Shown: positions 97 through 43,532 of the stretch, piece by piece
How positions within the stretch are numbered: position 1 is the stretch's first letter
Layout: each line of letters starts with the position of its first letter
Virus record (IMG/VR): IMGVR_UViG_3300017956_000025
Span: 1-46,033 of that record
DNA from: a virus
Strand: one strand, 5' to 3'
Length of the DNA stretch: 46,033 bases
Translations under genes and position numbers: made by a program
The notes under the pieces: model-generated
What the model was told of the DNA's origin: nothing
Seen by the model: the letters and a program-made list of their open reading frames with translations, nothing else
The model's database searches: none

Positions 97-3000
97 CTAA
101 GGAAGATGGAAGTTGCACGGGAACGGACCCTCAACGAAGGTTCCAGTAGCTGTATTGCCAGCGATAAAGAAGCAGAGATCCTCATCATCAATTGCAGACT
201 CATCCTTGCAGGTGCCAATGCCGAGTCTTTCAAGATCCTTAATTCCAACATAAATATCGTCATTTCTAAACCCAGATTTCTTTAGGTGAACGCCAAAGGA
301 AAGAACTGTTCTGTTTGCTCTATTTAGTGAATCATAAAGTATGTTTCTGGTGCTAAATGAAACTATGCCAGTATTAGGATCAATGCTTGCACCAACCTTG
401 AAAATTACTCCAGAAGTAATGTCTTCATAAAGTATATTGAAACTGATTGTTCCATCAATAAAGAGTGCAGAATTTGCATCAGAGGCGGGCTCCAAAACAA
501 CTGCTTTCGAAAATCCAGGTAAATGGCCAGTTCTAGATAAGAAGTAAATCGCCATGCCAGTAACGTCAACGGTTATTTCGGAGCCAGCAGTTAGTGTGCC
601 AGGCGTAAATGAGGATATTGTAGACTCATTTATTGTTTGTGGATAATCAATTATTGTACCGAGGTTATCTGCATTAATTACTTCTAGAGGAATAATATTG
701 AAAGAGTCTGTGCCAGAGTAATCATCCGAAAGTGTAAATACCATATTGGCAGACACTATATTTGTGCGCCTATTAAGTGCTATCGGGAAACCAATAGTAG
801 CTCGGTTAATTAAGCTTGTTGAAGAATCTCTTGATATTTCAATAAATGTACCGCCAGTATTATCGGCAGTCACCAGATCGTATCTTATTGTTGCGCTATG
901 TATTTTCCCAAAGAATATTTGGCCAGCGTTGGGAGTAAACTGCTGAGACATTTTAAATGCCAGGGATGCATCTCCAGCGCCCGGAGAAAAGCTTGGTATA
1001 GATCCAATTTTGCTAAACTTTCCATCAATACTGTCTTCGTCCAAAAGGGTTTCGTCATAGTACATCCCAAAGACAGCTTCATTTGTTCTTCTGAATCTAA
1101 ATGTTATTTCATCTGCAAGATCATCTCTTGCGGCTATTGCTCTATCAAAGTCATTGAGTATCGTACCGGTTGCCGTATCGGAAAGCGTTCCAGAGTAGAA
1201 CATCTCGGTAGAATCTCCGGCATTCACCCTCCAGCCAAGTTTTAAGTTGCAGGTGGTACCATCACTGTTGACGATCTCAATTTCTCCAAAGAAGCTTACG
1301 GTACCGACAGTTAAACCGGATTCAGACCAAGTTGACCTTGAGGCAACAAAGTCTACAACAAAATCTCCTGAAATAGGATCTAGCCCGCTAGGGTAATCGA
1401 TTGAAGCAGTTCTTTCTGGAGCACTGGTGGTTTCGAGCAAAAAGGTTGCAGGAGTATTCGTTGCTGGGTCGGTCGTTATTACGAAATAAGTTCCGCTAGA
1501 TGGATCTGTAATGGTCCAATCTGAAAAGCCAGCAGATGTTGGATAGCTGTAATCTACAAAGGCCTCTTCTATTATCTCATCTACAAGTCCGGTAGACTCC
1601 TCGTCAGCATAACCATCTACTGCGTAACCGTCAATTAGGGCATCAACATGAAGGCTTGCTATGCACTGAGTTATCTTTACCCGACCCTTGGTAATATCTG
1701 TTTCTCCGCCGGAATCTTCGCATCCAACATAAGTTCCGTCAGAGAAGAGCATTGCAGGATATCCGGATGCAGTATTACAAGTACCAGCATAGGATTTAAT
1801 AAAGTTATTGTAAAGGTCTATCTGGCAGTCCTCTATAGTACCGGGAGGCATGGCTATAGAAATAGTGGAGTATTCGATATCCCCGTGGTAAGGAACGCCT
1901 GGCTCGCTATAAATTTCTCCGTTTGGTATAAACAAATCATTAGGAAGAATCTTTTGATTCTTTAGGATTGGGCTGCAAACCTCTGGCTGAATGCAAGCTT
2001 CAGTCTCACAAACACATGACTCTGGCCGCTCTTCAATTAAGTTTGTTTCAACAAATCTTCTTAAATCACAGGCATCTATTTGTGACTCAAGATGGAAAAC
2101 ATTTGAATAAGAAATTGACCAATTTTTATTAACATATGGAGTTTTTAGAAGGTTCAGGTTATCTGCAAACATATTGACTGCAGATCCACTAACTATTGTT
2201 ATGTCAAATCCAGAGGATCCATTAAATGACGGAGTTCCACCATCAGGCTCCTCTACAGTTAGCGTTACCGAAAGAAGATCTGGGTCAAATTCTTTTGTCA
2301 GAACAACATATTCACCAGCATCTGATGAGACAGCCGGAATAATTACTTTGTCACCAGGCCTTATGGCTAGACCCTGCGTTTCCATAGCCACCGTAAATGT
2401 AACCGAATTTGTTGCAGCATCTGTACTTGCAGAAAGGCTCGATGATACATCTTCTGATGAATCAAATAGTGTAGGATAATTATCATCATCCAATATATTT
2501 TCTAAAGATATCTTTAGAACTTTGATGGTTTCATCTGATCCAAAGTTTATATAGCCGTCTATAGCATCTTCTAGCAGCTCAATATCTTCGCCGTCAACTG
2601 TGCCATCGGCATTTAAATCTGACTGCAAAATATCAACAAGGTCTAGCTCACCGCCAAGAACTTTTCTATCAGTTGTCTGGGTGCCAAGCGTGCTTCCTAT
2701 GACGTTTAAAAGAAGCGGAATATCATCGTTAGTGTACTTGCCATCATTATCTAAATCACCAAGCTTAACTACATCGCAGTCTACATTTGTAATGCGATAT
2801 CTAGAGTTGCATTCGCAATCCAAGTCAGGAGTAAATACTCTTCCTATTAGATTCTGTCCGAGCACATCTGTGCCGGGATCTATAAGCAATGCAAAATCCT
2901 TATCAATCAGTCCTGGCTTGTCCGCAGTTCCAGTAATGTCTTGAGCTTCCCTAACATTTGTGTCTATCACTCTGCTGAGAATAAGCGGAGATTCATGAAG

Positions 3001-4659
3001 CTGATCATCAAGCTCTTCCTGGGTCAGGACGCCTACCGAGGGAGCATCTTTTATATTTCTATATACAAAGTTGCCTGTTCTAGGGTGAGTGGCAGGATCA
3101 ACAAAGTCGTCCTCTCTATACAGGACTATGTAATTCTTTTCTCCCTCAGCAACTTTGGCCAAAGGAATATTATTTAAGAAGAATGGAATTCTGGTCGATC
3201 CGACATACTCAATCGTCTTGGGTATAGATACTGGAAATCCATCTGTAGTATAAGCTTGACCGTCTGTTATCTCGACTGTATCAGAGTGAACTACAATCCA
3301 CATCGATAAATCTGGATAGTCTACAAAAGAAGAGTTTACTGGATCATATTCTATTAACCTATAATCCTGTCTTTTAAACCTTTCTTCTGGGTTTAGGTCC
3401 TGACCGTTATCTTTCTTTCTAGAAGGCTTATAGTATCCGCCGGGTATACCGAGAGTTCCAACGCTATTATTGCCCCTTCTCGAAATCATAATGGCATAGA
3501 ACTTATCTTCCTCAAGACTTGGCTCTATATTTGGATCAGCTATAAGAGTTGTCGATAAATCTATCGTAACAATCTGCGGATTCTCATTAAGCCTAATGCC
3601 TATATCCTCTAAATCTTCTTGAGAATAAGATACTTCCATCAAAGGAGATGGGTTGGGGTCAAAATCAAGCAGATTTTCAGGATTTGGATCGGTTATACAG
3701 GATATATTGTCTAAAAGCTTATGTACCGATACTACAATTTCTCCGGAGAAATCATACTCGCCGCCTATAGCTGCATCGTCATCTCTTTCAACATAAAGAA
3801 GGAGGTCTACGCGCTGTATATTGTTGGTCTTTGATAAAAACTTCTGACCGTACTGAATTGTTTGATCAGCATTGGGTTCAAATAGAAAGTTTTTTGAAGA
3901 TTCTAGCTCAAAATAAAGCTCATTAAAGCTGTATGTCGTTCCAAGCGCCAGCTTTATCTCATCTTCTATTGAGCGACTTGTAGAGGAAGTTATAAAGGAG
4001 GCTAGCCCATAGTTGGGCGATTCTATTTGCGAGAAAGAATCAGTTTTTGCGAATACCCTTAGAGGCTCAGACTCCCTGAAGACAATCTTCCCGCCTTCTG
4101 AAATTGTTTTTATACTTTCATCTGAAGAAAGATATTCTGTTTTTCCAGTTCCACCAGAAAAATTGTTAAAAAATACAGATATAACCCTGGTATAGTAGTT
4201 ATCTGTTATCTTTGTTGTGTTTGAATCAAACTCAACAATCTCTGTGATTAGCTCCCCTTGGGTTTTTGTAGAGCTATACCTTAGACCAAGAATTAAGACC
4301 TTAGCCTTCAGTCTTCCACCAACGTCGAGACCGCTTGCAGTTACCTCTATGCGATTTCCGTATACTGTATCGCTAGGCTGGTCATCAAGGTATATGGCCG
4401 TTCCGTCGTAATTGCCTGCACCTATCTTTGTTTCAGATTCATTGAAATCTTCTGCAAATTCACCGGGAGAGGATGTATCAAAAAGAACTCTGCTTTCAAA
4501 AATACTATCTCTAACTACACCATTTTGGTGAAAGTCTAAAATAATATTTGAAGCCAAATTTCTATGATGTATTTGCTCTGTATCAAGATCTGATTCGGTA
4601 ACTCTTTGGCCGTCAAAAAAGTTAACTCTAGGCAGATTTTCTCTACTATTCCTTGACAT
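97..4659 (-). CDS. baseplate-distal fibre-like structural protein with dockerin-like calcium-binding pair
   Basis: A 1520-residue protein, the last complete gene of the tail cluster. The N-terminus (LPRVNFFDGQRVTESDLDTE) resembles the short attachment region of some phage baseplate-bound fibre proteins; this is from memory and is an inference. Residues about 635-692 carry two EF-hand-type loops: D635-D637-D639-G640-D646 and D681-N683-D685-G686-D692, each followed by a hydrophobic helix. This is the signature of a dockerin-type pair, with a longer linker than usual. Cysteine clusters lie near residue 612 and at C882, C884, C889 and C895. A DGYAVDGY motif is at about 1010. The C-terminal third is beta-rich and may hold a ConA-like fold. 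TTG at 4662 directly precedes ATG at 4659; ATG is preferred because AGGAG (4670-4666) is then 6 bases away rather than 3. Role in host recognition is inferred from position. Confidence 0.7.
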   Translation of the reverse strand: MSRNSRENLPRVNFFDGQRVTESDLDTEQIHHRNLASNIILDFHQNGVVRDSIFESRVLFDTSSPGEFAEDFNESETKIGAGNYDGTAIYLDDQPSDTVYGNRIEVTASGLDVGGRLKAKVLILGLRYSSTKTQGELITEIVEFDSNTTKITDNYYTRVISVFFNNFSGGTGKTEYLSSDESIKTISEGGKIVFRESEPLRVFAKTDSFSQIESPNYGLASFITSSTSRSIEDEIKLALGTTYSFNELYFELESSKNFLFEPNADQTIQYGQKFLSKTNNIQRVDLLLYVERDDDAAIGGEYDFSGEIVVSVHKLLDNISCITDPNPENLLDFDPNPSPLMEVSYSQEDLEDIGIRLNENPQIVTIDLSTTLIADPNIEPSLEEDKFYAIMISRRGNNSVGTLGIPGGYYKPSRKKDNGQDLNPEERFKRQDYRLIEYDPVNSSFVDYPDLSMWIVVHSDTVEITDGQAYTTDGFPVSIPKTIEYVGSTRIPFFLNNIPLAKVAEGEKNYIVLYREDDFVDPATHPRTGNFVYRNIKDAPSVGVLTQEELDDQLHESPLILSRVIDTNVREAQDITGTADKPGLIDKDFALLIDPGTDVLGQNLIGRVFTPDLDCECNSRYRITNVDCDVVKLGDLDNDGKYTNDDIPLLLNVIGSTLGTQTTDRKVLGGELDLVDILQSDLNADGTVDGEDIELLEDAIDGYINFGSDETIKVLKISLENILDDDNYPTLFDSSEDVSSSLSASTDAATNSVTFTVAMETQGLAIRPGDKVIIPAVSSDAGEYVVLTKEFDPDLLSVTLTVEEPDGGTPSFNGSSGFDITIVSGSAVNMFADNLNLLKTPYVNKNWSISYSNVFHLESQIDACDLRRFVETNLIEERPESCVCETEACIQPEVCSPILKNQKILPNDLFIPNGEIYSEPGVPYHGDIEYSTISIAMPPGTIEDCQIDLYNNFIKSYAGTCNTASGYPAMLFSDGTYVGCEDSGGETDITKGRVKITQCIASLHVDALIDGYAVDGYADEESTGLVDEIIEEAFVDYSYPTSAGFSDWTITDPSSGTYFVITTDPATNTPATFLLETTSAPERTASIDYPSGLDPISGDFVVDFVASRSTWSESGLTVGTVSFFGEIEIVNSDGTTCNLKLGWRVNAGDSTEMFYSGTLSDTATGTILNDFDRAIAARDDLADEITFRFRRTNEAVFGMYYDETLLDEDSIDGKFSKIGSIPSFSPGAGDASLAFKMSQQFTPNAGQIFFGKIHSATIRYDLVTADNTGGTFIEISRDSSTSLINRATIGFPIALNRRTNIVSANMVFTLSDDYSGTDSFNIIPLEVINADNLGTIIDYPQTINESTISSFTPGTLTAGSEITVDVTGMAIYFLSRTGHLPGFSKAVVLEPASDANSALFIDGTISFNILYEDITSGVIFKVGASIDPNTGIVSFSTRNILYDSLNRANRTVLSFGVHLKKSGFRNDDIYVGIKDLERLGIGTCKDESAIDDEDLCFFIAGNTATGTFVEGPFPCNFHLP

Positions 4660-4709
4660 CAATTGCTCCTAAAGATTGGTCTCGATAAAGCTTTTATTAT
4701 TAATAGAGA

Positions 4710-7700
4710 TTATTTGCATAAATTTCTCGGGAATTTGACTAGCGCATTAGTATGAGATGGTTTTAGTCTGTTAACTAATTCTACGATCAAGTCTTCTATT
4801 TCTTCTGTATTTATTTTGTCAAATTCATCAAATATTTCGATGTCAAAATTAAATATACCTCTCTTTGGATCTACTACCAGTGCATACTCTGGGTTTTCAT
4901 CTGACTTCAGATCCAGCAAGAAAGTTGTTGCGTCATCTTTGGATACCGGCAGAACTGTATCCGTATTTTCAGAATAATCTAAATCAATGCTCTCTCCGCT
5001 AGGAGACCTCGTGTTATCTCTTGGTTTATTGCTAAATCTTAAATTATCGATTCTAGCTAAAGCAGGCTTTATATCAAGTATGCTTCCACCTATAGATATT
5101 ACTCTAAAATCATCTGTTAAATTAATCTTTCTCTTTTTCCTTAGATTATTTTCAGAGTTTGGACTTTCACCGTATACGCTGCCTGCGCCATATTTAACGC
5201 CGGGATCTCCGTATGTTATCGATGTAGATGCTGCTCCATCAATAAATATTTTCATAAAGTCATTTGATGAATTTGCTCTCCATACGCACTTTACTCTGTG
5301 CCAGGTATTTCTCTTCCAGTTTACATCGATACCAGTAGTTAGCTCTTTTTCGCCATCACTAATAGAGAATATTACCTCACTCTCTCTTGACTTGTAAACT
5401 GATATTCTTTCTCCATTTAATCCAAGAGGAATGTAAGAAACTATAACGTCAACATTGAAGCCTGGCAGAGCCTCCTTGAGCCTTATTGTTCTTCCATCGG
5501 GGGAAAGGGTTGCTTCCTTTGAGAAATCCTTAGAAACACCAGTGCCGCCCTCTAAAATGCCGGTCAAGTCGCTTCTCTCGATTTCGTCAAAAAGAATGCT
5601 GCTTTCTTCGTTTTTATTATAAAATTTATTAAATCTCTTACTCTTATCCAAAAGCTTAACACTTAAAATTTTGCCAGCCGAGGTAGGAAGCTCGATCTCG
5701 ATTGGAGATATTGACTTTAATCGCTTTGTATTTACTGATGATATATCAACATAGTAACGATCTGTCGCGTCATTAAGTGTATCTAATATTGGGCTAATCC
5801 AAAACTCTATCGTGCCACCATTTTTCCTAAATATAGACAAATCATTATTGAGCAGAACGGGAGATCTTCCTGCGAAAACTCCTGATAATCCGAAATTATC
5901 ATTAACGCTCATGGTGCTAACAAGCATTTCTTCATTTCTTATGTATCTAGCATCATTAAATAGGGGTCCTCCCTCTGCCTGATTGCATTCAATAAAAGTC
6001 TGCTTTGCTATTTCGGGATCAAACCCAAGCCTTATCATTCTTGACTCAAATTCCTCGGGATTATTGATAACTTCTAGCAGCTTTTCGCGATCCTCTAGAT
6101 CCAGCTTAAACTTATAGTTAGACTCTGTATTTAAGAATTCTTTTTGCCTCAGTCTTCTTGACTGAAGTGCTATCGGATCGTCAAAATTAACCAAAAGTAG
6201 AGTCTGATCATCATAACAGGCGGGGTTGGGAGATACATAATCTCTAGTTATACTTCTAGTTCCTTTTGTAAATCTTTCATAGGTACGAGTATCGCTTGAC
6301 ATCTCTGTAACAATCTTAAGATCATCAAGAACTCCATTAATTGGATTTTTGCCATTAATATCAGTGCCAAAGAATAGGTCGTGACCAACATTTGGTATCT
6401 TTACATTTAAGAAGGCAGGATACTTGACAATATAAGGTCCGGGAACAAGTTCAAATGGGAAAGTTCCATCAGTTCCGTAGGAGGTTATGACAAAGCTTCC
6501 GTTGGCATACCTAAATATCTCAGCGTATTCCCCGTTATTGTTCTGAACCGTTACTGGATCGCTCTCTCTTATCTCCAAAACAAGAGGTTCGTAATAAGCA
6601 TCTGCTATAATTAAGCTGCCCTCTACAGAGTCAACTCTTAGGAAGATTTTGCTTCCAGCAATATCGCCATTACCTCTTATCTCAAATTCTTCAAAATTAG
6701 AGCCATCTACCGTTTCTCCTCTGACTATTATTGTATTTTCTGACTCTGAATAACCATCTATATCATCACTGCAGAAAACAATATTATCAGAATCAACATT
6801 AATAGTTAAATATCTACCGGAATTAACTTTAGAAATCCTTTCGGATTCAGAAGAGACTTTTGAGTCACTAAGATCTGTAATAAACTCTGCAGTATAATTC
6901 TCCGTTACAGAGGAAACGGTGCAATCTGGTATATACCTTTCTTTTATTATCTTTGTTATCTCAACAGAAGAAAGGGATATTGGCTCAACAGCATGCGTCA
7001 TAAAGACGCTCTTACCGCCCAGAGTTTTTATGTAGCTCTGTCCACCGTGTTTTATAAACTCTTCATATGCAGCGCTTGGAAGATAAGAGGAGCTTGCCAA
7101 ATAAACCCTCTCGTTAATGCCTCGGAAAAGTAATCCAAATGTTTTTATATGAACATCAAGATCAGAGAGCCTTACTGTAGGCACCCAGTTGCAATCAGCG
7201 TCCAGCCCAACAAACTCTATTATTCCGGCTTGAGCATTTGTTCTATACTTTGGATTTATTATTGAGCTTTCATTTTCTACCGTTATTTCTCCACTTCTAA
7301 TACTGTATCTTATGCCACCAATCTCTTCCTCGCTTTCATCACATCTCGTAATGTATACTGAGAAGGTTGAGTTAACAAGATCTGTCTTAATAAGATCTTT
7401 TATACCAGCCGTAGGCGCTAAAGAGAAGCTGATATCGCTTGCTGATACATTGAATACAACTGGCAAGAGGGTGTCGGCATCAAGTATCGTCACGCCCGAA
7501 CCAACTATCTGCCCAATGATATACTTTCCTCCAACATATGTGCTGGCATCAGTAGAGGCGTGGAATATAATTGCCCGTCCATACATATCGCTGGTAAAGC
7601 TAAATGATGATGAAAAGAATGTTGATGAGTTTGCAAGAATTGTTCCATCTACATTTATTGGATAGTACTTTATAAGGTCAGTAGTAAAATCTTGGAGTCT

Positions 7701-10700
7701 TTCCTTTCCAATGCCTGAAAACTTATCATTTATCTTGGTTTTTATTGGCCCACCAAATCTAAAGATATTTGGAACTTCTATACCATCTACAAAGAGGTGC
7801 ATCTCATCTTTTTCGTATAAAGTATTAAGCCTCCAGCTTGCCCCGATATGATGTATCTCTCCGGCCTTAAAATCCTTTATATTTTTAGCGATGTTATACA
7901 TTGCTGGGGAACCATTTGTTGTAAATCCATTATCATAGATTCTAAAGTTCAAAAATCCCTTTCCATCCTTAAAGATAGACATTCTATTTTTGTTCTCAGA
8001 TTCTCCGGTATCAAAAAGATATCTTAGCCTATCTGAAGTAAATCTTAGCTCATCTACATCAAATGTTACATCTGGAGCATAGCCATCTGAATAGCCATCT
8101 AAATAGCCGTCCCCGTAACCATCAATTACGCCTTCTGAGAAGAAGGAGAACTCTATCTTTTTATCTGTTGATATGTAAGTATCCTTATCTTCCAGCAAAT
8201 CATCGCCATCAACGTGCCTGCCGTCAAATTCAATTAATGATATTGAAATTATATTGCCATTAAAGTTTTGATGGAAAACTTCTGAGTTTATAGACTCTGC
8301 ATCAAAAAGATTTATAGCAAAGAATGGTTGAGACATAAGCAAGCAATTTTCATAATTTGCTTTTTCAAAATCATATATGGAGAGTCTTGATATAATTTCG
8401 GTTTCAGTCTCTACTGATATTTGCTCATCTACTTTTCTAAAAATTAATTTGTTAAAGGAATTGTTTTGCCAATTAAAATAAGCTATATCAATAACCTCAA
8501 GGGTTTCCATATCTCTGACTAGCAGAACCGTTTGGCCTGCATTCGTTAATCCTAACATTAGCTTAACATTAATCTGTCCGTCGAAAATATGAATCGGAGT
8601 TATCCCAATTATTTTTCCAGATATTTCTCCGTTAAAGCTGCCAAGATTTGTGTCTTCAAAATTATCTACTCTAAAATCAACAGACACTGAGTAGTTTCCG
8701 CCAGCACATGGCAAGCTGGTATATACAGAATTCTCTCCGGAGAATCGATCACCATATACAGATGGTCCAATTGTGTAAATACCAGAGGAATTTGAGCTAT
8801 CAAAGTCTAACGTCTTAGCCCATTGCCCTCGATCATTTTGGGAGCCGCCCAATATGGTATTTATAATGCTGGAGTTAGTTTCGTTTATCTTAAGCCACCC
8901 ACTCTCTTCAAGCTTACCGTCTCCACAATATCTGAAGGAAGAAGCGCATATTAGGCCATTGGCGCAAGTTTCATCCTCTTTTCTGTGAGATCTATTTACA
9001 GAGGAGAACTCTCCATCAGTAATAAGTCTTCCGGTTAAGTTGTAGTTTAAGGCAACGGTATCGTATACAAACGAGAAATCTTCTCCATCAACCAGAACTG
9101 ACACCGGAACACTGGCCGTCTCAGCTATCCGGCTTTTAAATATCCATTGTCCAGCATGCTCTGATAACTCAGATTCACAAAGCTCGTCATGCCATATAAA
9201 TATACCTTCATCGTCACGAATATTATATGGAGATGAATTTATAGGATAAAAGCTATCTTTTGATATTCTAAATGGATTAGATTTTGGAGATAAAGCATTT
9301 TTGCCAATAAAAATATCATTTAAATTAAAGCGATTATTTAATTTATAGATAAATTTTGTTATATTTATTTCAGAATTAACACCGCTTTGTATAGACCCTA
9401 TAGATATTGAGCCAAAATCTTCAGTTAAGGAGTCTTTTTCTAATTCTTGAAGTCCAAAATCAGCATAAAATGAATTATCAGAAGAATCTATAATATCAGT
9501 ATAAAATAAATCAATATTATTTTTATTTAGCTTTATTGATACCTTATTTGCAACAGGCTCTCTTTCTAGCGACATTGATATTTTGTCAAACAAATTGATT
9601 ACAAAGCTTTTTTCCTCATAACCGTATATAGAAGATGACGCGGTATTTGGGCGGGTTAGCAAAGTTGCGGTTCCATAAGCAAGAACGCATGCACCAGTAG
9701 GTTCAATTGCGTTTAGCGCCTCAGACCCCATGCCAGACAGCTCAGGTTTATTTATAGGAATTCTGTCAACAACAACGCCATAAAGTTCAGATGGTATTTC
9801 TCCACCAGCTTCTTCGTAGTTTTCATCTAAGAACGAAGAAACTTTGAATACATTATTTTCTGAGTCAATAAACACAAATGAGTCAGGGCCCGCTTGGCTT
9901 ATATCATCAGCCTGAACCATAAGGCTTGTGCTAGCTGGAGCATCAAAGGTTATTGTTACAGAGTTAAAATCTTTATCTCTAAATAGAGCTAGGGAATCTA
10001 GCGTATCTTTTATAGCGCAAGAACAAAGAACGGTCTTATGATATCTATTGTATTTTTCAATATTATTTTTAGCTACATCTAGCTCATCAATTAGAAATAC
10101 TGCAAGCTCATAGTTCTCAACCAATAGAGGCTTGAGGGAAAACAGTGTTGTTATATTCTTGTTGCTATCATCGAAAAGAATCGAGCCAACCATAAACTGT
10201 GATAGGGCAGCCGCGTTTATCCCAGAGCCATATTTTCCGTAAGAACCTGAGGACTGGTCAAATATCCCCGCGAAATCATAGGGGTCCTCTTTATAAAAGT
10301 AGTTAAAGTTAAACTCTATATCTAGGCTGGCATGGGCCACTCTATCTAAAAGCCTATCTTCCTTGCTAAGCAGATAATTACAAAACTCAACTTTTTCTTC
10401 TTCATCTTCTATATATAGTCTTTTGTTATTTGCGGTTATTCCACCCCTAGAGCTATCAACTATATTGAAGTTTTCATTTTCAGAAAAAAGTCTAAAATTT
10501 GACTCAAAATCAAATGGATTTTGCCCATCTTGATAGTTATATATTTTTTGGCCAATATTATCTATCTCTATTTCTATTTCTGCGTCATTATCTATTCCGT
10601 TCCAACCGGGCGTAATCCAAGCTGATATAGTACCCTCTGTTAGATTTAGATTAGACAAAGAAGGAGTCGTTATGGTTAAGTCGTCCTCAATCAGAACTCC

Positions 10701-13700
10701 TTCGCCAAACTTTGATTGCTCAAAATTAAGAATGCCATCGGCAACTACCTTTTCTGGATCTAGATAATTGCGACCCAATACCCAGGTATTAAATGCTGTT
10801 TCTGAAATTTCTGGAGTCATATCTGTAAATGACTCTACGAGATTCTCAAACGAAGGTATGGTCGGCCCCGTAGCGAAAGACTCTATGGTGCCGCTTAACG
10901 CACTCCTGTAAACCTCTCGATCAGTTGTTAGGGCAAAGTCCTGGAAAAATGGTATTTTTGTTAAAATTCCAAAGTTGTCTTTGAGTGCTTTTCTTAGCGC
11001 CCCATATTTATACGAAACGTAGTACTCCTCACCCTCCTGCATGGAATTATTTATAGACCAGTCTATTTCATTATCGCCATACTCATAGGATATGTATATA
11101 TCATCGTAGACATAGCTGTAAGATAGGTATAGGGAGCCATAATTATAATCAGCAGCAACCTTTGTACCAATGCTTGGTATATTATCTGTTATATACTGAA
11201 CGGTGACCAAGTCACCATTAGTCAAGAAGGAATCGGAAGGAATAGTTATAATTATTCCCTCATCATTATATTCTAGCGAAACTTTATTTATAACATCGGC
11301 CAGGCCTAGCTCTGGTTCAAATTTATCCGAGGCATTAACAGCTGGGCTATCGATATAAACCCGTGATAAAAATTCATCTGCTCCAGTTATTGAAAATCTT
11401 GATCCATTAGAGTCTAGGAGGAAATCTCCATCTAGATCTATTAGAGACAAATTTGGGCCTGTTTTTATCTCTGCATAAAGTCCTGTGCCATCAGTTCCTA
11501 CGGCGACGATTACCATGTCTGAAATTTTTGACACATTCAGCTTTTCATCAAAAACTTCCTCTCCAGTTGCATCAAAGATAACCTTATAAACCTCCGAGGC
11601 ATCTGGATCGCTGATCCTAATTATAAAGTCATCATTATTGGTAAAAACTTTGGTTGAATAATATTTTTTTAAGTCTAAAACATTTTTACTGAATTTAGTT
11701 ACGCCCGGTATATATAGATTATAATCATTATTGCCGATAATTTCTTCTGAGGAAAGGTCCGATACCCTCTCTGCAGCGTCCGTATAATTTAGATTTTCTC
11801 CATAAATATACTTATAATCAACAACTGATCTTATAGACTTTATTTGATTTTCAAAAACAACTGTATAATTATCAAGAATTATGTTTGTTTCTTGGGAATC
11901 ATTATTTAAATCTAAAGCAAAAGAATTTGACCATAATGTAAGTGAGTTTTCTAGATCAAGAACAGATATGGACTCAAAATCATTTTTAATTTTATCGTAA
12001 TTTATAACAGAATTAAATACAGAATTTGACTCGCTTATTTTCTTTGAGGCTTCCGTAACAGCTAGTACATTTTTATTTCTCGTTACTGCACTATTATGCT
12101 TATAAGATACTAGGCCAAAGCTGTCAATATCAAAATCATCGGTTGCCAAGTATATTTTGCCATTCTCGTAGTCAATGGCGTAATCACCAGAGATTCTTAG
12201 CCTTGAAACGTTGTCTAAAAAGCCGTCATAGCTGTCATATTCAATCGTTGAAAGAAAACTATCTGAGTTAACTCTTTTTAGATTTGGAGCAAGAGACAGT
12301 GGCTCATAAAATTTCTCTAAATTAAAAAGGCTATTCTCAGAAAAAACAGCAGAGCTATTTAAAAATGAACCAATATAACTTTCTGTTTTTGAAATAAGCA
12401 TTATATTGGATAAGTCGAAAGCATATCCTGCAGGCCCAATAGTTACATTCTCAAAGAGCGAGGGGGCTTGTGCCGTACTTAAAATTCCAACACTATTTAT
12501 AAGCCCATTAGAATCTGGCTCTCCAAAAAACTTTATTTCGATATCTTCTACTGGATCGGAGCCATCTAATCCAAAACTTCTTATAAAATAAGTTGTTGAT
12601 CCAGCGTCTATAAGCTCACTTGGAATTCCTGGAGATATTTTTATATTCGAGTTAGATGGTATGGCATCTATAGATACAGAGAAAGAGGGTATTACAAATG
12701 AGCCAGAGGGAATAAGCTCCTCTCCCTCTACTTGTGCAAATTGAGCAATCTCATATGCTTCTTTAATCTCTGGAGATCTTCTTCCTGAGAACTGAATATC
12801 TGTATTATTAAAGAAAACAGTTTGATATATTTCTCCAGTAGTTTGATTAAAGATCTTAAAAACATTTGTTATAGGATAATTTTTCGCCCTAACAACAAAT
12901 GATGACACTAGGTCATTCTTGACCTGCTCATTTATAACCTCAACGTGGCAATCAGCCTTATAATCTACATCTTTTACCAATACAGTTTCATATCCAAACT
13001 CTAACTCTACTTCGCTTTCGAGCAAGGCTCTCTTTGGAGTTGCAACGACATCATTATCTTTAACATAATAGTCAAGGTTATTTGTAAATGAATTTTTATA
13101 TGAATAAGAAGCCGTGTATGCAACCCTTCCGGTACCTTCTCCAACGAAGGTCACTCCAGCTACAATTACTTCACCTGTAGCGTAATTTATTGTATACTCG
13201 CCAATTTCAGAGGGAAGCTTTGAAGAATTAAAGGCTATTTCTTTTTTAAATGGAGTCTGAACTTCGATGGCATTCTCATTTGTAGAGAATGTAACTTCTC
13301 CTAATTCTGCTATCTCCCCATTCACATCAACTATTGGTGCATTTTTTAAGAAAAATCTAGTTGAGCTAGAGGGTATATTTTCATTTACTACATCAACAAT
13401 ATTGAAAATCTGAAGGGTATCTTCCGCTACATTTAAAGATAAATCTTTATAAACATATGAGACTAAAAATCTATCATTAAAAGATGGCTTCTCTATATTT
13501 CCAAATTCAGATAGCTGAACCTGATTAGATTCTAAGTTAATATTTTTAAATGCAAAATTTGGATCGTATTTATTCTCTGCCAGGGAGTACTTGTAAATAT
13601 CTAATCGGTACTTGGTGCCAAGGTTATCATCGCAATCAGGTACATCGTCTGGTGTTATATGTATAATTTCCTTGACGGCTATGATATTTTTGTTTGCTAA

Positions 13701-14435
13701 AGTAAGAATAAAGTTTTTAAACGAGTTATTTTCTGAAAATGTTGATACTTCCTCAAGCTCAACGTACTCCTGCTGCAGAGAAACTGGAAAATTTGGAAAA
13801 AAGTGATTTTCGGGTATTGTTGATTCCTGGTTGTACTGCAGAGATTTAAATCTAAGAAGATCACCCTCAGGAGTTCTTGACACCCTATCGATAGAGTAGG
13901 CATTCTCATTTGCAAGACGGTCCGTTGCTCCAGAGGCCCTGGTCCTTACCTCATCTACTACGGTCTGCTTTATGTAATTATCAGATAAAACTTGACCAAT
14001 AGTCTTCTGAGCATTGTAAAGCTGTTCGGCTTGCGCATCAACTATATTTGATACATTAGAGTTCTGCAGAGAGTATACGTCTGGAAGAACCTGATAGATT
14101 TGATCCTTTATAGGATTTCTATTGCTTATACCAACAAAGTAAAGCTGCCTAGATACATCATCATTGACTAATCCAGAGCCATCAATTGATTTAAATTTTA
14201 TATCCTCTAAATCTAATAAATTTAAAAGATAATAATTTCCAGATGTTTGAGGTCTTGTTTTTAAGATAATTACATTATCTTCTATTTTAACGCTAGATAC
14301 CTCTAATCCATCAGAGCTTCCGTCTATAGATTCTATTAAGAAATTATCTTTTGTAATTAAATCGCTTAACTTTTTATTAAACGTAATTTTCAGTTCAGTA
14401 CTTGATATTGCTGAAAATGATACAGGTCTAAGCAT
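4710..14435 (-). CDS. giant LamG/ConA-like structural adhesin in the gpI position (3241 aa)
   Basis: The largest gene here. The N-terminus (about 1-65) reads like a bacterial Ig-like (SbsA-type) domain, with the phrase LKITFNKKLSDLITKDNFLI. Residues about 100-180 are helical (QIYQVLPDVY, then an Ala/Gln-rich stretch) and could stand for the tail protein I module, since P2 and Mu encode I just after J. Three ConA/LamG-like regions are recognisable: about 1220-1330 (EGTISAWITPGWNG), about 2120-2220 (HHIGASWRL then MHLFVDG), and about 2870-3085 (GGTIEFWISPI, then NTWHRVKCVWRAN and FIDGAAS). A DGYx repeat begins at D2105. The C-terminus ends with a helix and LKPSHTNALVKF. The start ATG at 14435 follows AGGAA that overlaps the TAG of the J gene. 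Likely role: baseplate-anchored receptor or glycan binding. The ConA-like calls are fairly sure; the gpI assignment is by synteny only. Confidence 0.75.
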   Translation of the reverse strand: MLRPVSFSAISSTELKITFNKKLSDLITKDNFLIESIDGSSDGLEVSSVKIEDNVIILKTRPQTSGNYYLLNLLDLEDIKFKSIDGSGLVNDDVSRQLYFVGISNRNPIKDQIYQVLPDVYSLQNSNVSNIVDAQAEQLYNAQKTIGQVLSDNYIKQTVVDEVRTRASGATDRLANENAYSIDRVSRTPEGDLLRFKSLQYNQESTIPENHFFPNFPVSLQQEYVELEEVSTFSENNSFKNFILTLANKNIIAVKEIIHITPDDVPDCDDNLGTKYRLDIYKYSLAENKYDPNFAFKNINLESNQVQLSEFGNIEKPSFNDRFLVSYVYKDLSLNVAEDTLQIFNIVDVVNENIPSSSTRFFLKNAPIVDVNGEIAELGEVTFSTNENAIEVQTPFKKEIAFNSSKLPSEIGEYTINYATGEVIVAGVTFVGEGTGRVAYTASYSYKNSFTNNLDYYVKDNDVVATPKRALLESEVELEFGYETVLVKDVDYKADCHVEVINEQVKNDLVSSFVVRAKNYPITNVFKIFNQTTGEIYQTVFFNNTDIQFSGRRSPEIKEAYEIAQFAQVEGEELIPSGSFVIPSFSVSIDAIPSNSNIKISPGIPSELIDAGSTTYFIRSFGLDGSDPVEDIEIKFFGEPDSNGLINSVGILSTAQAPSLFENVTIGPAGYAFDLSNIMLISKTESYIGSFLNSSAVFSENSLFNLEKFYEPLSLAPNLKRVNSDSFLSTIEYDSYDGFLDNVSRLRISGDYAIDYENGKIYLATDDFDIDSFGLVSYKHNSAVTRNKNVLAVTEASKKISESNSVFNSVINYDKIKNDFESISVLDLENSLTLWSNSFALDLNNDSQETNIILDNYTVVFENQIKSIRSVVDYKYIYGENLNYTDAAERVSDLSSEEIIGNNDYNLYIPGVTKFSKNVLDLKKYYSTKVFTNNDDFIIRISDPDASEVYKVIFDATGEEVFDEKLNVSKISDMVIVAVGTDGTGLYAEIKTGPNLSLIDLDGDFLLDSNGSRFSITGADEFLSRVYIDSPAVNASDKFEPELGLADVINKVSLEYNDEGIIITIPSDSFLTNGDLVTVQYITDNIPSIGTKVAADYNYGSLYLSYSYVYDDIYISYEYGDNEIDWSINNSMQEGEEYYVSYKYGALRKALKDNFGILTKIPFFQDFALTTDREVYRSALSGTIESFATGPTIPSFENLVESFTDMTPEISETAFNTWVLGRNYLDPEKVVADGILNFEQSKFGEGVLIEDDLTITTPSLSNLNLTEGTISAWITPGWNGIDNDAEIEIEIDNIGQKIYNYQDGQNPFDFESNFRLFSENENFNIVDSSRGGITANNKRLYIEDEEEKVEFCNYLLSKEDRLLDRVAHASLDIEFNFNYFYKEDPYDFAGIFDQSSGSYGKYGSGINAAALSQFMVGSILFDDSNKNITTLFSLKPLLVENYELAVFLIDELDVAKNNIEKYNRYHKTVLCSCAIKDTLDSLALFRDKDFNSVTITFDAPASTSLMVQADDISQAGPDSFVFIDSENNVFKVSSFLDENYEEAGGEIPSELYGVVVDRIPINKPELSGMGSEALNAIEPTGACVLAYGTATLLTRPNTASSSIYGYEEKSFVINLFDKISMSLEREPVANKVSIKLNKNNIDLFYTDIIDSSDNSFYADFGLQELEKDSLTEDFGSISIGSIQSGVNSEINITKFIYKLNNRFNLNDIFIGKNALSPKSNPFRISKDSFYPINSSPYNIRDDEGIFIWHDELCESELSEHAGQWIFKSRIAETASVPVSVLVDGEDFSFVYDTVALNYNLTGRLITDGEFSSVNRSHRKEDETCANGLICASSFRYCGDGKLEESGWLKINETNSSIINTILGGSQNDRGQWAKTLDFDSSNSSGIYTIGPSVYGDRFSGENSVYTSLPCAGGNYSVSVDFRVDNFEDTNLGSFNGEISGKIIGITPIHIFDGQINVKLMLGLTNAGQTVLLVRDMETLEVIDIAYFNWQNNSFNKLIFRKVDEQISVETETEIISRLSIYDFEKANYENCLLMSQPFFAINLFDAESINSEVFHQNFNGNIISISLIEFDGRHVDGDDLLEDKDTYISTDKKIEFSFFSEGVIDGYGDGYLDGYSDGYAPDVTFDVDELRFTSDRLRYLFDTGESENKNRMSIFKDGKGFLNFRIYDNGFTTNGSPAMYNIAKNIKDFKAGEIHHIGASWRLNTLYEKDEMHLFVDGIEVPNIFRFGGPIKTKINDKFSGIGKERLQDFTTDLIKYYPINVDGTILANSSTFFSSSFSFTSDMYGRAIIFHASTDASTYVGGKYIIGQIVGSGVTILDADTLLPVVFNVSASDISFSLAPTAGIKDLIKTDLVNSTFSVYITRCDESEEEIGGIRYSIRSGEITVENESSIINPKYRTNAQAGIIEFVGLDADCNWVPTVRLSDLDVHIKTFGLLFRGINERVYLASSSYLPSAAYEEFIKHGGQSYIKTLGGKSVFMTHAVEPISLSSVEITKIIKERYIPDCTVSSVTENYTAEFITDLSDSKVSSESERISKVNSGRYLTINVDSDNIVFCSDDIDGYSESENTIIVRGETVDGSNFEEFEIRGNGDIAGSKIFLRVDSVEGSLIIADAYYEPLVLEIRESDPVTVQNNNGEYAEIFRYANGSFVITSYGTDGTFPFELVPGPYIVKYPAFLNVKIPNVGHDLFFGTDINGKNPINGVLDDLKIVTEMSSDTRTYERFTKGTRSITRDYVSPNPACYDDQTLLLVNFDDPIALQSRRLRQKEFLNTESNYKFKLDLEDREKLLEVINNPEEFESRMIRLGFDPEIAKQTFIECNQAEGGPLFNDARYIRNEEMLVSTMSVNDNFGLSGVFAGRSPVLLNNDLSIFRKNGGTIEFWISPILDTLNDATDRYYVDISSVNTKRLKSISPIEIELPTSAGKILSVKLLDKSKRFNKFYNKNEESSILFDEIERSDLTGILEGGTGVSKDFSKEATLSPDGRTIRLKEALPGFNVDVIVSYIPLGLNGERISVYKSRESEVIFSISDGEKELTTGIDVNWKRNTWHRVKCVWRANSSNDFMKIFIDGAASTSITYGDPGVKYGAGSVYGESPNSENNLRKKRKINLTDDFRVISIGGSILDIKPALARIDNLRFSNKPRDNTRSPSGESIDLDYSENTDTVLPVSKDDATTFLLDLKSDENPEYALVVDPKRGIFNFDIEIFDEFDKINTEEIEDLIVELVNRLKPSHTNALVKFPRNLCK
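8079..8123 (-). repeat. 12-base tandem repeat encoding DGYx units
   Basis: Within the 3241-residue gene, four consecutive 12-base units encode DGYG-DGYL-DGYS-DGYA starting at residue 2105. On the plus strand the copies read agccatctgaat, agccatctaaat and so on, with third-position drift between units. This suggests an old or selected repeat rather than a fresh slippage event. The unit sits just before a ConA/LamG-like region. A two-unit version occurs in the neighbouring 1520-residue fibre gene. Confidence 0.85.
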
Positions 14436-14443
14436 TATTGTTC

Positions 14444-17400
14444 CTAGTTAATTCTGAATTTGTTTCTCGACACTGCCTCAAAGGAGATCACTCCCGGTGA
14501 AATATACTGATTATCTAGCGCTCGAATAAACGCCCTTCTTCCTGACAGCCCTGTTTCGTTAAATATAGATATATTAACTGAATCAACTCCATTTTGTGCT
14601 GCAGCAACTGATATAACATCTGAATAATCAACCGTTCCACCAAGTGAAGATGCTGATATAAGGTTTGTTACAGCATTAGCAACATTTTCAATAATACTGT
14701 CTGTATCATTTAATGCATCATCATTTATTAGAATTGTGCCGGAAACATCTACTGAAATTTCTTCAGCTTCTTTTACAAGTACATCTGCGGTAATAGGTCT
14801 TACCCTCTCTATTTCACTCGTAGCATCGAGTATCAGCTTATTTATATTATACGATACGGTTATTCTTTCTCCTTCTTTTGGAGATATAAAGTCATAATCT
14901 ATCTGATACTGCTCAGACAATGCAGGCTGATTTAAAGCAGAAATTTCTATAGAACCAGATATTCCTCCAACGCTATCTCTGAATCCAGATGAAACAGAGA
15001 TATTGCTTATTCTGCCGTACCTATTGGCCGAAGTTCTTTCCGTAGGTACATCGTAAAATAGCTCTTCCGATTCATTTTTATTATAAATACATAGCTCAAC
15101 CCTAATTGTATCAGAAGATGAGAGTTCTATTTCATTGTTAGTCTCATTTGATGGTATAGTAAATTCATAGTTAGTTAAAGAGCTATCTATACTTGCCGTA
15201 CCAACTGTGAATTCTATATTTGAAAGACCGTGACCAACCTTACTGAATACTTTATCGGGATCTCCATTATCATCTAGTCTAGATACAGAGAATATTCTAG
15301 CAATTCCAATGTCTTCGTTTAACTCGGTTAAACCTAGCGCTTCTTCGATATAAGGCTCTAGATCAACCTTGTTTCCAGTTATGCTTGTTCCAACTGTAAC
15401 ATCAAGCATATAAGTATTTAATGAAGTTCCTAATATTTTTACTTTACCCGGAGAAGATATACCCGTTAATGACAGAGCTAAAAATGTCGGACCAAATCTG
15501 GTAATCGGATTTACAGAGAAGTCAGTACTTCTATTAAAAAATATCGGCTGATTAGAACTCGCGGTTCCATCTCCAGATAAGCCGGTTAAAGTGTCTGCGT
15601 CATCATCGCTAGTAATTGGCAGGTCTGACAAGAGCAGGGATGGATAAATTGTTGAAGAATCGTAGATATATGTAACATAAACCGGATCACCAGACAAGAA
15701 AGCTGAATCAACTGTTTCTGTCAAATTTTCTGCCTCAAAAATGCCTTCAGATGGCAGGACCACAGTATTTTGGAAGAATGATCCATCGGTTGAATCCAAA
15801 TCAAATAATTCTACTTTATTATAATCAATTATAATCTCATCATCTATTTGCCCCTGCGAATCTGATGGCAGATAAATCTCTCTGGAAGAGAATTCTCCGT
15901 CAGCTTCCTCTGTATTGTAAAGCTCCAAGGAGTCGGATACCCTTTTTATTGAAATAATGTTTGATATTATTTCATCATCTAAAGATAAGCTTGTTCCAAC
16001 CGCCGTTGTGCCATCAGGCCTCGTTAGGACCCCAAGGGTTGTTGCGACAGTTTCTTTTAGATAGACAGAAATAACTCGATTTATATTATAATTTAATTCT
16101 ATCTCGTAATTTACATCATCAGCAGATCTGGCTATTAGGGACTCTTCCTCAAAGATCCCTCCGCTCTGACTCCAATCAATAACATCTCCGGCGTCTGGAT
16201 CTTTAAACTGATAATCGTCTCCACCGGAAAAGTCTATATTCTTATCATAGAATTGTCGCCATGTATAATTTACACTCAATATATTTGATGCGTTTGGAAG
16301 CGACCGCCCGCTTATTTCTATAAGTCCTGTATAATTTAAGTTATCTTGATCAAGATTTTGGTCAACAACAGAGTAAACTTCGCCAGTTGTTTTATTTTGA
16401 ACACTGGTTACTTTTACTATAGGAGTATGCTTAAGCCTTATAAAGTTTGACCCTGCAGTGCTAACGTCTGAGTTTTCTCCAGACTCTACCCTATCTAAAT
16501 AAACGGCATTTAAATTCTCAATATCAGAAAAAGAAGGAATATCTAGCGAATAAGATTCTCCCTTAATAATTGGCTCTGCATTTACAACCTTTATATTTGA
16601 TATATAATGAAGTTTATCAAACCCAAAGGGGCTGCCACCGGTATCTTCGTTTAAATCTTTTTCAAGCTCGAAGTTTCCTCTCTTAATTCCATCTTCGTCT
16701 ATAAAAGCTTGAGTTAAGGGGCCTGATTGGCTTCCAACAACCGAAATTATGGAATCGATAGGTTGTGCCGGCAAAACCCCCTTCGTAAAGGCTAATACCC
16801 TTCTCTCCTCAGAAGTTCTTGTTTGATCTTGGTTTCCTTGGCCCAGAACGAAGTCATTTCTTTCATCACTAATGTCCCCAGATCCAGAGAAATCAGTAAA
16901 GATGTAAGATTCGGTAAGTGGCTCAACTTTTCTTCCAAGAACATATATATCTACCTTGCCGCCCGTTCCTGAGCTAAGAATTCTGCTAGAGCCATCATCA
17001 AGAGAAATAGTTTCTGTGCCGTCTCTAAGCATAAGGGCGTTGCCAGGCTCTACGACAAGAGCATCTACAACCCCATCAACGCCTAGCAGTGCATTTCTAT
17101 AGCCAAGTGAAGTTCCAATATTTGCTCCACTAAAAACTGATAAAATTCTAGACCTAAATGATGCATCAGTTTCTTTGTTTATTCCCCCTGTTGTTGCCGT
17201 TAGATTTATCACAGATAGGGTGGCCTGCAGATTAGTCCTAACGATCTGCAGAGAAGATACGTTGCCTGTCGTACCGGGCCTTTCCGCTTGAATGGGTATC
17301 TCTATTGCGTATATGCTGTTTATACCGGCTATATTCAGTGCTCTCCTTAGCCTTGTTGCATTTGCGGCAAACCTATTTTTTTCAGAAGATGCCATAACAA

Positions 17401-17767
17401 AGTTTCCAACCGTTCTAAACGTTGCGCCATTTCTTGCGGTAACTATAGTCCCATTTGGAATTGATATATCTGCAGCCAAGCTGTTTGTGGAAAAAATAAC
17501 GATCCCGCTTGCAGAGGCGCCAGAGTTTCTAACTACACCAAAGTTTGAAGCAAGGCGGTCTAGGTCAGCCCCAGAAGTTGTTGCAAGGGACTGCTTCTGT
17601 GAGACAACTGAGAGGGTGGAATAAAGCCTTGATATCTGATCTGCTACCGGATCAATAAAGACATCTCTAGAAACCGTACCAGGCTTTGTGTCTAGGTTTG
17701 GCTGAGACAATCCAAGCCTCTGTATCATTGAGGATACTATTTCACTAAATGATCTAAAGTTTGCCAT
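14444..17767 (-). CDS. baseplate J-like wedge protein (gp47/gpJ family), enlarged
   Basis: An 1107-residue baseplate wedge protein; the family forms the inner ring of contractile-tail baseplates together with gp25/W. The N-terminal third has the typical phrases PGTVSRDVFIDPVADQI, SGADLDRLASNFGV, IPNGTIVTARNGATFRTV and GGINKETDASFRSRIL, followed by GGKVDIYVLGRKVEP near residue 270. The C-terminal family segment resumes near residue 987 (RPITADVLVKEAEEISVDVS) and runs to the end with GTVDYSDVISVAAAQNGVDSV. Between them lie roughly 650-700 residues of beta-rich, acidic sequence not found in small relatives such as P2 gpJ (about 300 aa). The start ATG follows TTAGGAG, whose TAG is the stop of the gp25-like gene. 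Confidence 0.9.
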   Translation of the reverse strand: MANFRSFSEIVSSMIQRLGLSQPNLDTKPGTVSRDVFIDPVADQISRLYSTLSVVSQKQSLATTSGADLDRLASNFGVVRNSGASASGIVIFSTNSLAADISIPNGTIVTARNGATFRTVGNFVMASSEKNRFAANATRLRRALNIAGINSIYAIEIPIQAERPGTTGNVSSLQIVRTNLQATLSVINLTATTGGINKETDASFRSRILSVFSGANIGTSLGYRNALLGVDGVVDALVVEPGNALMLRDGTETISLDDGSSRILSSGTGGKVDIYVLGRKVEPLTESYIFTDFSGSGDISDERNDFVLGQGNQDQTRTSEERRVLAFTKGVLPAQPIDSIISVVGSQSGPLTQAFIDEDGIKRGNFELEKDLNEDTGGSPFGFDKLHYISNIKVVNAEPIIKGESYSLDIPSFSDIENLNAVYLDRVESGENSDVSTAGSNFIRLKHTPIVKVTSVQNKTTGEVYSVVDQNLDQDNLNYTGLIEISGRSLPNASNILSVNYTWRQFYDKNIDFSGGDDYQFKDPDAGDVIDWSQSGGIFEEESLIARSADDVNYEIELNYNINRVISVYLKETVATTLGVLTRPDGTTAVGTSLSLDDEIISNIISIKRVSDSLELYNTEEADGEFSSREIYLPSDSQGQIDDEIIIDYNKVELFDLDSTDGSFFQNTVVLPSEGIFEAENLTETVDSAFLSGDPVYVTYIYDSSTIYPSLLLSDLPITSDDDADTLTGLSGDGTASSNQPIFFNRSTDFSVNPITRFGPTFLALSLTGISSPGKVKILGTSLNTYMLDVTVGTSITGNKVDLEPYIEEALGLTELNEDIGIARIFSVSRLDDNGDPDKVFSKVGHGLSNIEFTVGTASIDSSLTNYEFTIPSNETNNEIELSSSDTIRVELCIYNKNESEELFYDVPTERTSANRYGRISNISVSSGFRDSVGGISGSIEISALNQPALSEQYQIDYDFISPKEGERITVSYNINKLILDATSEIERVRPITADVLVKEAEEISVDVSGTILINDDALNDTDSIIENVANAVTNLISASSLGGTVDYSDVISVAAAQNGVDSVNISIFNETGLSGRRAFIRALDNQYISPGVISFEAVSRNKFRIN

Positions 17768-17775
17768 TATTACTC

Positions 17776-18207
17776 CTAAGCGATCCTTACCGTTAATGAG
17801 GCTGTTAGATCTGTTATTTCCCTTGTCAGAACTGACACACTTACATTATACAATCTTGGATCTAATTCATCTCTTTCCACTATTACTCTATTTATATCAA
17901 CTATAATTTCACCAGGACTTAGACTTTGCCTTGAAGACTGAGCCCTTTGTAAGGCCATTAGATTTTTAACAGCATTGCGAGCGGATCTCTCTAGGTCTAA
18001 GCTTATAATTTGATTATCGGCAACATCACCAATATTTAGGCGACCAATATAACTTCCATATCTTTTATGATACTTGTTGCTGCCCAAATCTGTAAGAAGT
18101 ATCTTTAATATATCTTGCCTAAGCTTATTGTTGCCAACAACCGTAGTGATAGAGCCATCAGCATTAAGAGATATATCGCCGTTTTTTATTTTTAAATCAA
18201 AAGACAT
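17776..18207 (-). CDS. gp25/gpW-like baseplate wedge protein
   Basis: A 143-residue protein of the length expected for the GPW/gp25 family, which joins the baseplate wedge to the first sheath ring. Diagnostic features are the N-terminal beta hairpin (LKIKNGDISLNADGSITTVV), the helix NKLRQDILKILLTDLGSNKY with the following RYGSYIGRLNIGD, and a C-terminal beta region (VIVERDELDPRLYNVSVSVL) ending in a final strand. It lies directly upstream of the J-like gene, as in Mu (46-47) and P2 (W-J). AGGAA precedes the ATG at good spacing. The stop TAG overlaps the Shine-Dalgarno sequence of the J gene, pointing to coupled translation of the two wedge partners. Confidence 0.88.
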   Translation of the reverse strand: MSFDLKIKNGDISLNADGSITTVVGNNKLRQDILKILLTDLGSNKYHKRYGSYIGRLNIGDVADNQIISLDLERSARNAVKNLMALQRAQSSRQSLSPGEIIVDINRVIVERDELDPRLYNVSVSVLTREITDLTASLTVRIA

Positions 18208-43200: not shown

Positions 43201-43532
43201 TCAAACGGAGTAGAAATTCCGCTTGCATCAATCTCTTCTTCTTTTCCGAATAGGAGTGTTCCGTTTAGCCTTAGCTCAGTTCTACCGCTTACAACTGGCC
43301 AATTCTGAAGTCTAAAGAACCTTCCATCTGCAGAGCCTGTGGGGCTACAGTCGGAGTTTCCATCGGTGCCGGATCCAGCAGCAGACTCGATTACAGTCTC
43401 CTCCCTGAGGCCTTCACCCATTACGCAAACTATTCTAATTCCGCCAGGAATTGATACGCCCCTGGAGATAACCCTATCTCTGGCAAAAGCTCCGGGCTGT
43501 ATAAATCCTGATACTCCAGGTATGTTAGCCAT
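40233..43532 (-). CDS. tail sheath protein, unusually large (1099 aa)
   Basis: The contractile sheath. The N-terminus (IPGVSGFIQPGAFARDRVIS, RGVSIPGGIRIVCVMGEG) and C-terminus (RDFVKKTLRNSLAGFIGG, INQRTRSIMSGLVSQGLVTF, DPRQINVFLRFTPAYPINYI) carry the conserved sheath core, including the C-terminal arm that links subunits. SARQNVAIPLTNKVLSGFSL near residue 940 belongs to the conserved domain. T4 sheath has 659 residues and P2 about 400, so several hundred residues between are extra. They are beta-rich; residues about 189-265 (TATGSISGQIYDDTGAPITF) look like an Ig or carboxypeptidase-regulatory-like fold. These insertions probably face outward. GGAGG lies 7 bases before the ATG, the strongest ribosome site in the window, as expected for an abundant protein. 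Confidence 0.9.
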   Translation of the reverse strand: MANIPGVSGFIQPGAFARDRVISRGVSIPGGIRIVCVMGEGLREETVIESAAGSGTDGNSDCSPTGSADGRFFRLQNWPVVSGRTELRLNGTLLFGKEEEIDASGISTPFDFRLDPTTGCIELRGASIGDQDGKAFSASSSNIGTGIIVVNDDCDPLVTLDILDDSAPSERWTIKCVSVVRDSNGDPIPGLSTFTATGSISGQIYDDTGAPITFTSGYFTSNAGAISGNVSECVDGFEVAYGDNTATAFPQGFVTIREGDTSLETSNTFVVPGADLVSQGQALPGDFLCLDPNGSVTVDGYAGHEIESIEYDGVDTTITVISDSLGPADPAWGEEPDDALDWSIRAMNILIDDDSVAHDELTGEPATEGSFTAGDVGKTVLICPGSNFGGGRFVITDVTSTRRVRLVSLEDETVSFDDIEGVGATGLADTGLTFHLLQNNGLLLLGIEEGGTPFEVGDKFFVDVSSRALAQGDNLVAKYIFELDLNDPQFFTEANDLFTKHGLVSESNALSLGAQMALENGAPGVLAVQCKPPVPRRTSVTLLEERDSLGNGGFSSCYDAGASNADACEVDDLRFVIPRPIEGLRNGRPDSDSRVNIFVVRDGVETQVFPNKVAFYNSQLESDIQQGQWISSSDNAFSYTIVNSEEDIVASGDDGTLDVESGQVYFTTPEIDFDGVNVGNVIVITSMEDASGTVYTSVEEISGQLFNAALGIPSVELEITSVEDDSLVYVAAENGTPLDLISSYSDIQFFVKDPSNTNADDASLLLHQDLVSSGVIREGDGIRISYIDENDADFFDTNWFEAFEALEAAEAQIIVPLPSQAISSVFRASVNHCENMSSIVNRKERVSFIGAQMGVTPAAIIGTEEVAVEDIGIIEGIQGDDPEEILSGNTEDLVNFKLSDNYTSNRCVYFYPDEIVRNVNGTNVALHGFYAAAAAAGYLSARQNVAIPLTNKVLSGFSLTRDKIFRPIIQNQIGAVGATLLQPVSGGGRVLAGRTTSQSGFIEDEEISIIFIRDFVKKTLRNSLAGFIGGVQNPDVNLLINQRTRSIMSGLVSQGLVTFFDNIKVEQDKVDPRQINVFLRFTPAYPINYIFIDIEVGII

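Follow-up and report, generated by a model that had tools for sequence, protein, structure and literature searches.

This study considered where the peripheral wedge subunit of the baseplate is encoded in a viral record of 46,033 bases (the window, that is, the whole stretch of DNA that was analysed), and what is to be made of the giant protein encoded at the place where a gpI would be expected. The ORF of this giant (4710-14435, minus strand) begins with ATG and runs uninterrupted for 3,241 amino acids, and the plus frame over the same positions is full of stops. A Shine-Dalgarno-like AGGA (14442-14445, minus strand) lies 6 nt before the ATG and overlaps the stop codon of the upstream neighbour, a baseplate J protein of 1,107 aa (14444-17767, minus strand) representing the gpJ/BW2-type wedge partner, which is itself preceded by a gp25/gpW-like sheath initiator recognized by Pfam and PHROG matches (17776-18207, minus strand). 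Read in order on this strand, the sheath, the tube, a possible small tape measure and a tube-initiator-like protein (all from Pfam/PHROG) are followed by large proteins at the hub and spike positions, the gp25-like sheath initiator, Baseplate_J and then the giant. Since this order is supported by Pfam and PHROG, the giant can be assigned to the gpI position, as a sequence-only reading of this DNA had proposed.

Other proteins of the window were also noticed to be large. Baseplate J is inflated as well, in that shorter J proteins match its residues 5-390 and 947-1073 and leave an internal insertion of about 556 aa (391-946). The sheath protein (40233-43532), at 1,099 aa, is roughly double its counterpart in Bacillus phage G in size, and sheath families match its C-terminal part only. 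In a protein of 2,669 aa (20317-28326), residues 1280-1405 gave a weak, coiled-coil-like match of the apolipoprotein type. The conserved 1,521-aa protein that follows the giant (97-4662) harbors by eye two dockerin-like stretches (DLDNDGKYTNDD and DLNADGTVDGED), and gave no Pfam match at E 1.

Homologues of the giant were found in IMG/VR with identities of 77-78% and 47%. An alignment-based scan disclosed 71 loci, many of them on contigs of 130-460 kb, and more relatives were gained by searching with baseplate J. The family alignment consists of 62 proteins judged complete, the giant of the window counted in, and these proteins fall into two size classes of about 3.1-3.5 thousand and 2.2-2.4 thousand aa. 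Because this 62-member family shows the same layout throughout, chance can be dismissed as the origin of this ORF. Named phages yielded no match to the giant in either nucleotide or protein searches, and no relative was detected in 84,980 prokaryotic genomes scanned with the patterns used, so that the giant is not evidently prophage-borne. Two further loci (L006:5069-15005 and L034:6980-14262) have the giant gene split over separate ORFs, possibly through sequencing or assembly error, and in L004 and L005 the gene meets the contig end within collagen-like PGGEG repeats, which may mark a limit of assembly.

We consider, with a probability of roughly 0.8, that the giant serves as the peripheral wedge subunit of this baseplate, the equivalent of P2 gpI, Mu gp48, T4 gp7, BW3 and triplex-1, and that its gpI core is cut in three by two inserted arms. 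When a profile of 11 contiguous gpI-position proteins was compared by HHalign with the whole 3,241-column profile of the giant family (62 members), with alternative hits reported, three matches were obtained: columns 31-90 of gpI with residues 107-164 of the giant (E 3e-3), columns 87-149 with residues 1149-1212 (E 1.4e-6) and columns 139-211 with residues 3172-3236 (E 2e-3). These matches are collinear with little overlap and tile columns 31-211 of gpI, and the next match stands at E 0.83. Piece A (residues 107-164; 13944-14117, minus strand) is a helix-turn-helix with an LPDVY motif and predicted helices at 108-116 and 127-151. Piece B (residues 1145-1215; 10791-11003, minus strand) reads NFGILTKIP...DREVYRSALSGTIESFATGPT, has predicted helices at 1148-1159, 1173-1189 and 1193-1204, and displays the lowest mean entropy among the regions compared. 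Piece C (residues 3185-3241; 4713-4883, minus strand) matches as a strand, a helix and the terminal LKPSHT-ALVKF motif; the KPAHT-type motif followed by a strand near the C-terminus of the giant (LKPSHTNALVKF) recurs as a KPA/KPS-type end in nearly all relatives. The order A, B, C is kept in 62 of 62 members and piece C forms the end of the chain in all of them, with insertion 1 varying from 744 to 992 aa and insertion 2 from 1,111 to 2,213 aa. Ahead of piece A, residues 1-100 (14136-14435, minus strand) form a conserved N-terminal beta-type domain which by eye resembles bacterial Ig-like/Big_5 domains.

A separate gpI gene elsewhere, which the earlier reading had named beforehand as contrary evidence, was not found in the related records scanned. 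Scanning ten large giant-carrying records with a gpI HMM, within the sensitivity of that HMM and the incompleteness of the records, returned piece B inside the giant ORF as the sole match in nine and no match in one, and the same scan gave strong matches in four records with a contiguous gpI. Annotation by families is silent on this point: Pfam PF09684 (Tail_P2_I) did not match the giant at E 0.001, nor at E 1, and Pfam and PHROG scans of the whole giant and of its pieces gave no match to tail protein I. The PF09684 cut-off is also missed by gp189 of phage G and by the 11 contiguous relatives, and neither the gpI nor the LamG-B profile found a match among PDB sequences. Since the PF09684 cut-off is not reached, the giant is classed as a divergent gpI-type (BW3/gp7-type) protein rather than a member of that family, and the assignment is one of homology by profile comparison and fold, not of Pfam membership.

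It is equally important to establish that the contiguous relatives are themselves gpI. In several further large phages, J is followed by a gene for a contiguous protein whose first ~200 residues are gpI-like. Compared as single sequences with this contiguous family, P2 gpI (E 0.007) and Mu gp48 (E 0.011) matched in the expected register, and Mu gp48 also matches the giant weakly at the places expected for pieces A and C. The structural model of one contiguous member is poor (pLDDT 52); its PDB fold matches were to phiCD508 (probability 1.00), the diffocin triplex region (0.99) and A-1(L) (0.90, a chain with the length of gp32), with weaker ones to Bas63, T6SS and Streptomyces systems. Most of these top-ranking chains come from the baseplates of contractile systems, and the matches need care, as models of low pLDDT can match meaninglessly.

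Insertion 1 (residues 165-1144, about 980 aa; 11004-13943, minus strand) is predicted to be an essentially all-beta multidomain arm. The AlphaFold (AF2) run on residues 95-1220 with 58 sequences reached pLDDT 87, and long helices were modelled only in pieces A and B, with an essentially all-beta chain between them. When this 1,126-aa model was compared with PDB and BFVD, the top matches were baseplate proteins of phi812, JBD30 and phiKZ (TM <0.1, about 0.07), together with uncultured and cyanophage baseplate proteins, also at TM <0.1. As these are strings of beta domains at TM <0.1, the matches were dropped as proof of identity.

Insertion 2 (residues 1216-3184, about 1,970 aa; 4884-10790, minus strand) is the LamG-bearing arm. 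The sole domain of the giant above a Pfam cut-off is Laminin_G_3 (PF13385) at residues 3010-3089 (34.1 bits against 27.6), which belongs to LamG-B (residues ~2844-3145; 5001-5906, minus strand), and since Pfam sees only this LamG domain, standard annotation misses the gpI in the giant. A second domain, LamG-A, was found by comparing the last LamG domain with the whole-family profile, and it is interrupted twice, so that it lies in three segments: residues 1243-1276 (10608-10709, minus strand; E 9e-3, collinear), residues 2145-2228 (7752-8003, minus strand; E 2e-13) and residues 2677-2719 (6279-6407, minus strand; E 6e-3, collinear). The first interruption, nest 1 (residues 1296-2125; 8061-10550, minus strand), is recognized by the same profile comparison and may hold an additional nested ConA-like domain near 1824-2026 (E 4e-4). 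A DGY-rich repeat was observed at residues 2103-2122. The whole chain can accordingly be written as gpI-A, arm 1, gpI-B, LamG-A1, nest 1, LamG-A2, nest 2, LamG-A3, LamG-B and gpI-C, with the LamG block enclosed between pieces B and C. The three ConA/LamG-like domains of the earlier reading were thus right as to the presence of LamG and inexact as to the count, as insertion 2 contains two Laminin_G_3-type domains by sequence comparison and possibly the further ConA-like one; in relatives of the giant, three stretches match Laminin_G_3 by Pfam.

The conservation of these domains bears on what the arm may do. In identity to L001, the LamG core segments (78-88%) show much the same conservation as the wedge pieces (67-98%), which argues against LamG as a fast-evolving host-range determinant; the LamG cores are probably not hypervariable host-range domains, and their slow evolution leans toward a conserved ligand or a scaffold. 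Nest 1 is the most variable region among the close relatives of the window, with 67% identity to L001 falling to 42% in one 60-residue stretch, and it is largely absent from the class of 2.2-2.4 thousand aa. A different arrangement was noticed at L151:12522-18515, where a contiguous gpI of 271 aa ends in TAG and an ORF of 1,724 aa, which resembles part of nest 1 of the giant (E 4e-4), starts two codons on in the same frame. This suggests that an adjacent gene can encode the arm, or that readthrough of the TAG joins gpI to it.

In the mechanism that we propose, the chain would supply in order the first helices (107-164), the beta arm of about 980 aa, the next helices (1145-1215), the LamG arm of about 1,970 aa and a closing piece (3185-3241), a strand-helix-strand that brings the KPAHT motif to the C-terminus. 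Most likely, pieces A, B and C fold together as one wedge core, which would pair with two copies of baseplate J as (J)2-I and be present in six copies per virion. Each arm would leave the wedge and re-enter it, so that both of its ends would be anchored there, and the two arms would radiate from this core. They would probably extend the periphery of the baseplate and either contact glycans of the host surface or carry further fibres, and binding by the arms would exert a direct pull on the wedge, the trigger of sheath contraction. We offer more tentatively, as a possibility that we hold short of probable, the wider proposal that, in this conserved large-phage lineage, the arms which contact the host are built as insertions in the trigger subunit itself, double-tethered and with domains nested in LamG, so that contact is hard-wired to the baseplate switch without separate fibres here.

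The strongest alternative concerns function, and we regard it as a serious one whose chances fall somewhat below even: the arms would act as scaffold only, a peripheral collar or fibre-docking platform in which LamG binds virion proteins and separate fibres recognise the host. It is compatible with the split gpI architecture and contests the adhesive function alone. The conservation of the LamG cores, at a level close to that of the wedge pieces and unlike that of typical host-range domains, agrees with it, while LamG/ConA-like domains commonly bind carbohydrate, and nest 1, through its variability, could be the best candidate for a recognition face. From studies of other phages, a BW3 protein (T4 gp7, pyocin PA0619, P2 gpI) has two gp6/gpJ copies as its partners and as a rule carries receptor-binding proteins, BW3 being their attachment site in T4, A511 and pyocin; the main role of the known BW3 proteins is to anchor fibres (PMC10811340). 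In XM1, those regions of gp17 that are not resolved fall in the tail-spike density (PMC10457771). On the other side, Gp119 of Vp4, annotated as a wedge protein and furnished with carbohydrate-binding modules, decorates host cells (PMC11406892).

As for the core, it is highly improbable that the matches of pieces A and C to gpI are fortuitous and the giant an unrelated tail protein at the gpI position. Taken singly, pieces A and C reach only E ~2e-3 to 8e-3, and Tail_P2_I is silent on the giant, but the three matches occur in the correct order and register and piece B is significant alone at E 1.4e-6. With match columns only, the three scores are 61.8, 38.5 and 33.0, and the control maxima are 21.8 for reversed columns, 19.7 for column shuffles and 27.1 for 8-column block shuffles, so that no comparable score arises in shuffles. 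The helices predicted in pieces A and B also agree in position with those modelled for the contiguous gpI (the latter at pLDDT 52), and no other gpI was seen in the related large records scanned. Least probable of all is the arrangement that the sequence-only reading itself favoured, an N-terminal gpI adaptor within residues 80-200 with an adhesive arm fused behind it. Residues 107-164 do carry gpI-like helices (about the first third of gpI) and phage G gp189 appears to be so built, but the remaining matches to the gpI profile fall at 1149-1212 and 3172-3236 and not at 165-200, the residues after ~155 are beta in the AF2 model, and throughout the 62-member family it is the C-terminus of the chain that bears the KPAHT end of gpI. 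That idea is incomplete, as the final ~55 residues are needed to complete the core; what stands is that wedge and arm share one polypeptide, with the remainder of gpI at 1145-1215 and 3185-3241 and the arm inserted into gpI at two places instead of lying behind it.

The gpI-type wedge subunit is part of the conserved core of contractile injection machines, and a three-way split kept across about 60 large-phage proteins suggests that this core tolerates insertions of up to about 1,000 and 2,200 residues. The insertion sites are placed closely, and they offer a natural example of how arms could couple to the contraction trigger. The same check may reveal hidden wedge proteins in other large phages. 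Carbohydrate modules linked to the wedge (Vp4 Gp119), a C-terminal extension of gpI (gp189) and very large proteins at the gp7 position (gp111 of Synechococcus phage Bellamy) are already known or annotated, whereas the open-access literature searched yielded no description of a gpI whose core is divided in three by nested giant insertions.

With reference to known systems, the giant shares with P2 gpI, Mu gp48 and the BW3 or triplex-1 proteins (T4 gp7, A511 gp104, pyocin PA0619) the position after gpJ, the first and middle helices and the terminal KPA-type motif; P2 gpI and Mu gp48, however, comprise only 176-180 aa, as against 3,241 aa with two internal arms. In Bacillus phage G, gp188 is the closest annotated baseplate J homologue, and the next gene, gp189, matches PHROG 1160 'baseplate protein'. 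By eye, gp189 displays the same gpI pieces, including NFGTLV...YRGLIQGVIQSLLMGPT and KPAHT, but here gpI is contiguous in the first ~190-200 residues and ~900 others come after it without interrupting it. T4 gp7 (1,032 aa) and Bellamy gp111, a 'baseplate wedge initiator' of 4,067 aa (L184:28570-40773), are like the giant large proteins at the gpI/gp7 position. In T4 gp7, the gpI-like part appears by eye behind an N-terminal region of ~640 aa, and profile similarity of its family is not significant, the best E being 0.28 to the giant and 0.38 to the contiguous gpI profile. In Bellamy gp111, residues 192-224 match T4 gp7 weakly, and a beta-type stretch of ~105 aa is recognized by eye near the equivalent of the first insertion site; this protein differs in that a KPAHT-like end was not seen.

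Vp4 Gp119 resembles the giant as an annotated wedge protein with sugar-binding-type domains (PMC11406892). It differs in its size of 831 aa and in its relation to A511 gp105, a connector of the fibre network (PMC10811340); its extra modules are absent from homologues, and no split gpI is described for it. Lastly, the partner subunit gp6/triplex carries wing domains inserted after the core bundle (diffocin, PMC10996793; A-1(L) gp31, PMC10966104), and insertion 1, which follows the first gpI helices, may occupy a comparable place. The wing of A-1(L), however, measures ~100 aa and belongs to the J/gp6-type subunit, whereas the arm of the giant extends over ~980 aa within the gpI subunit.
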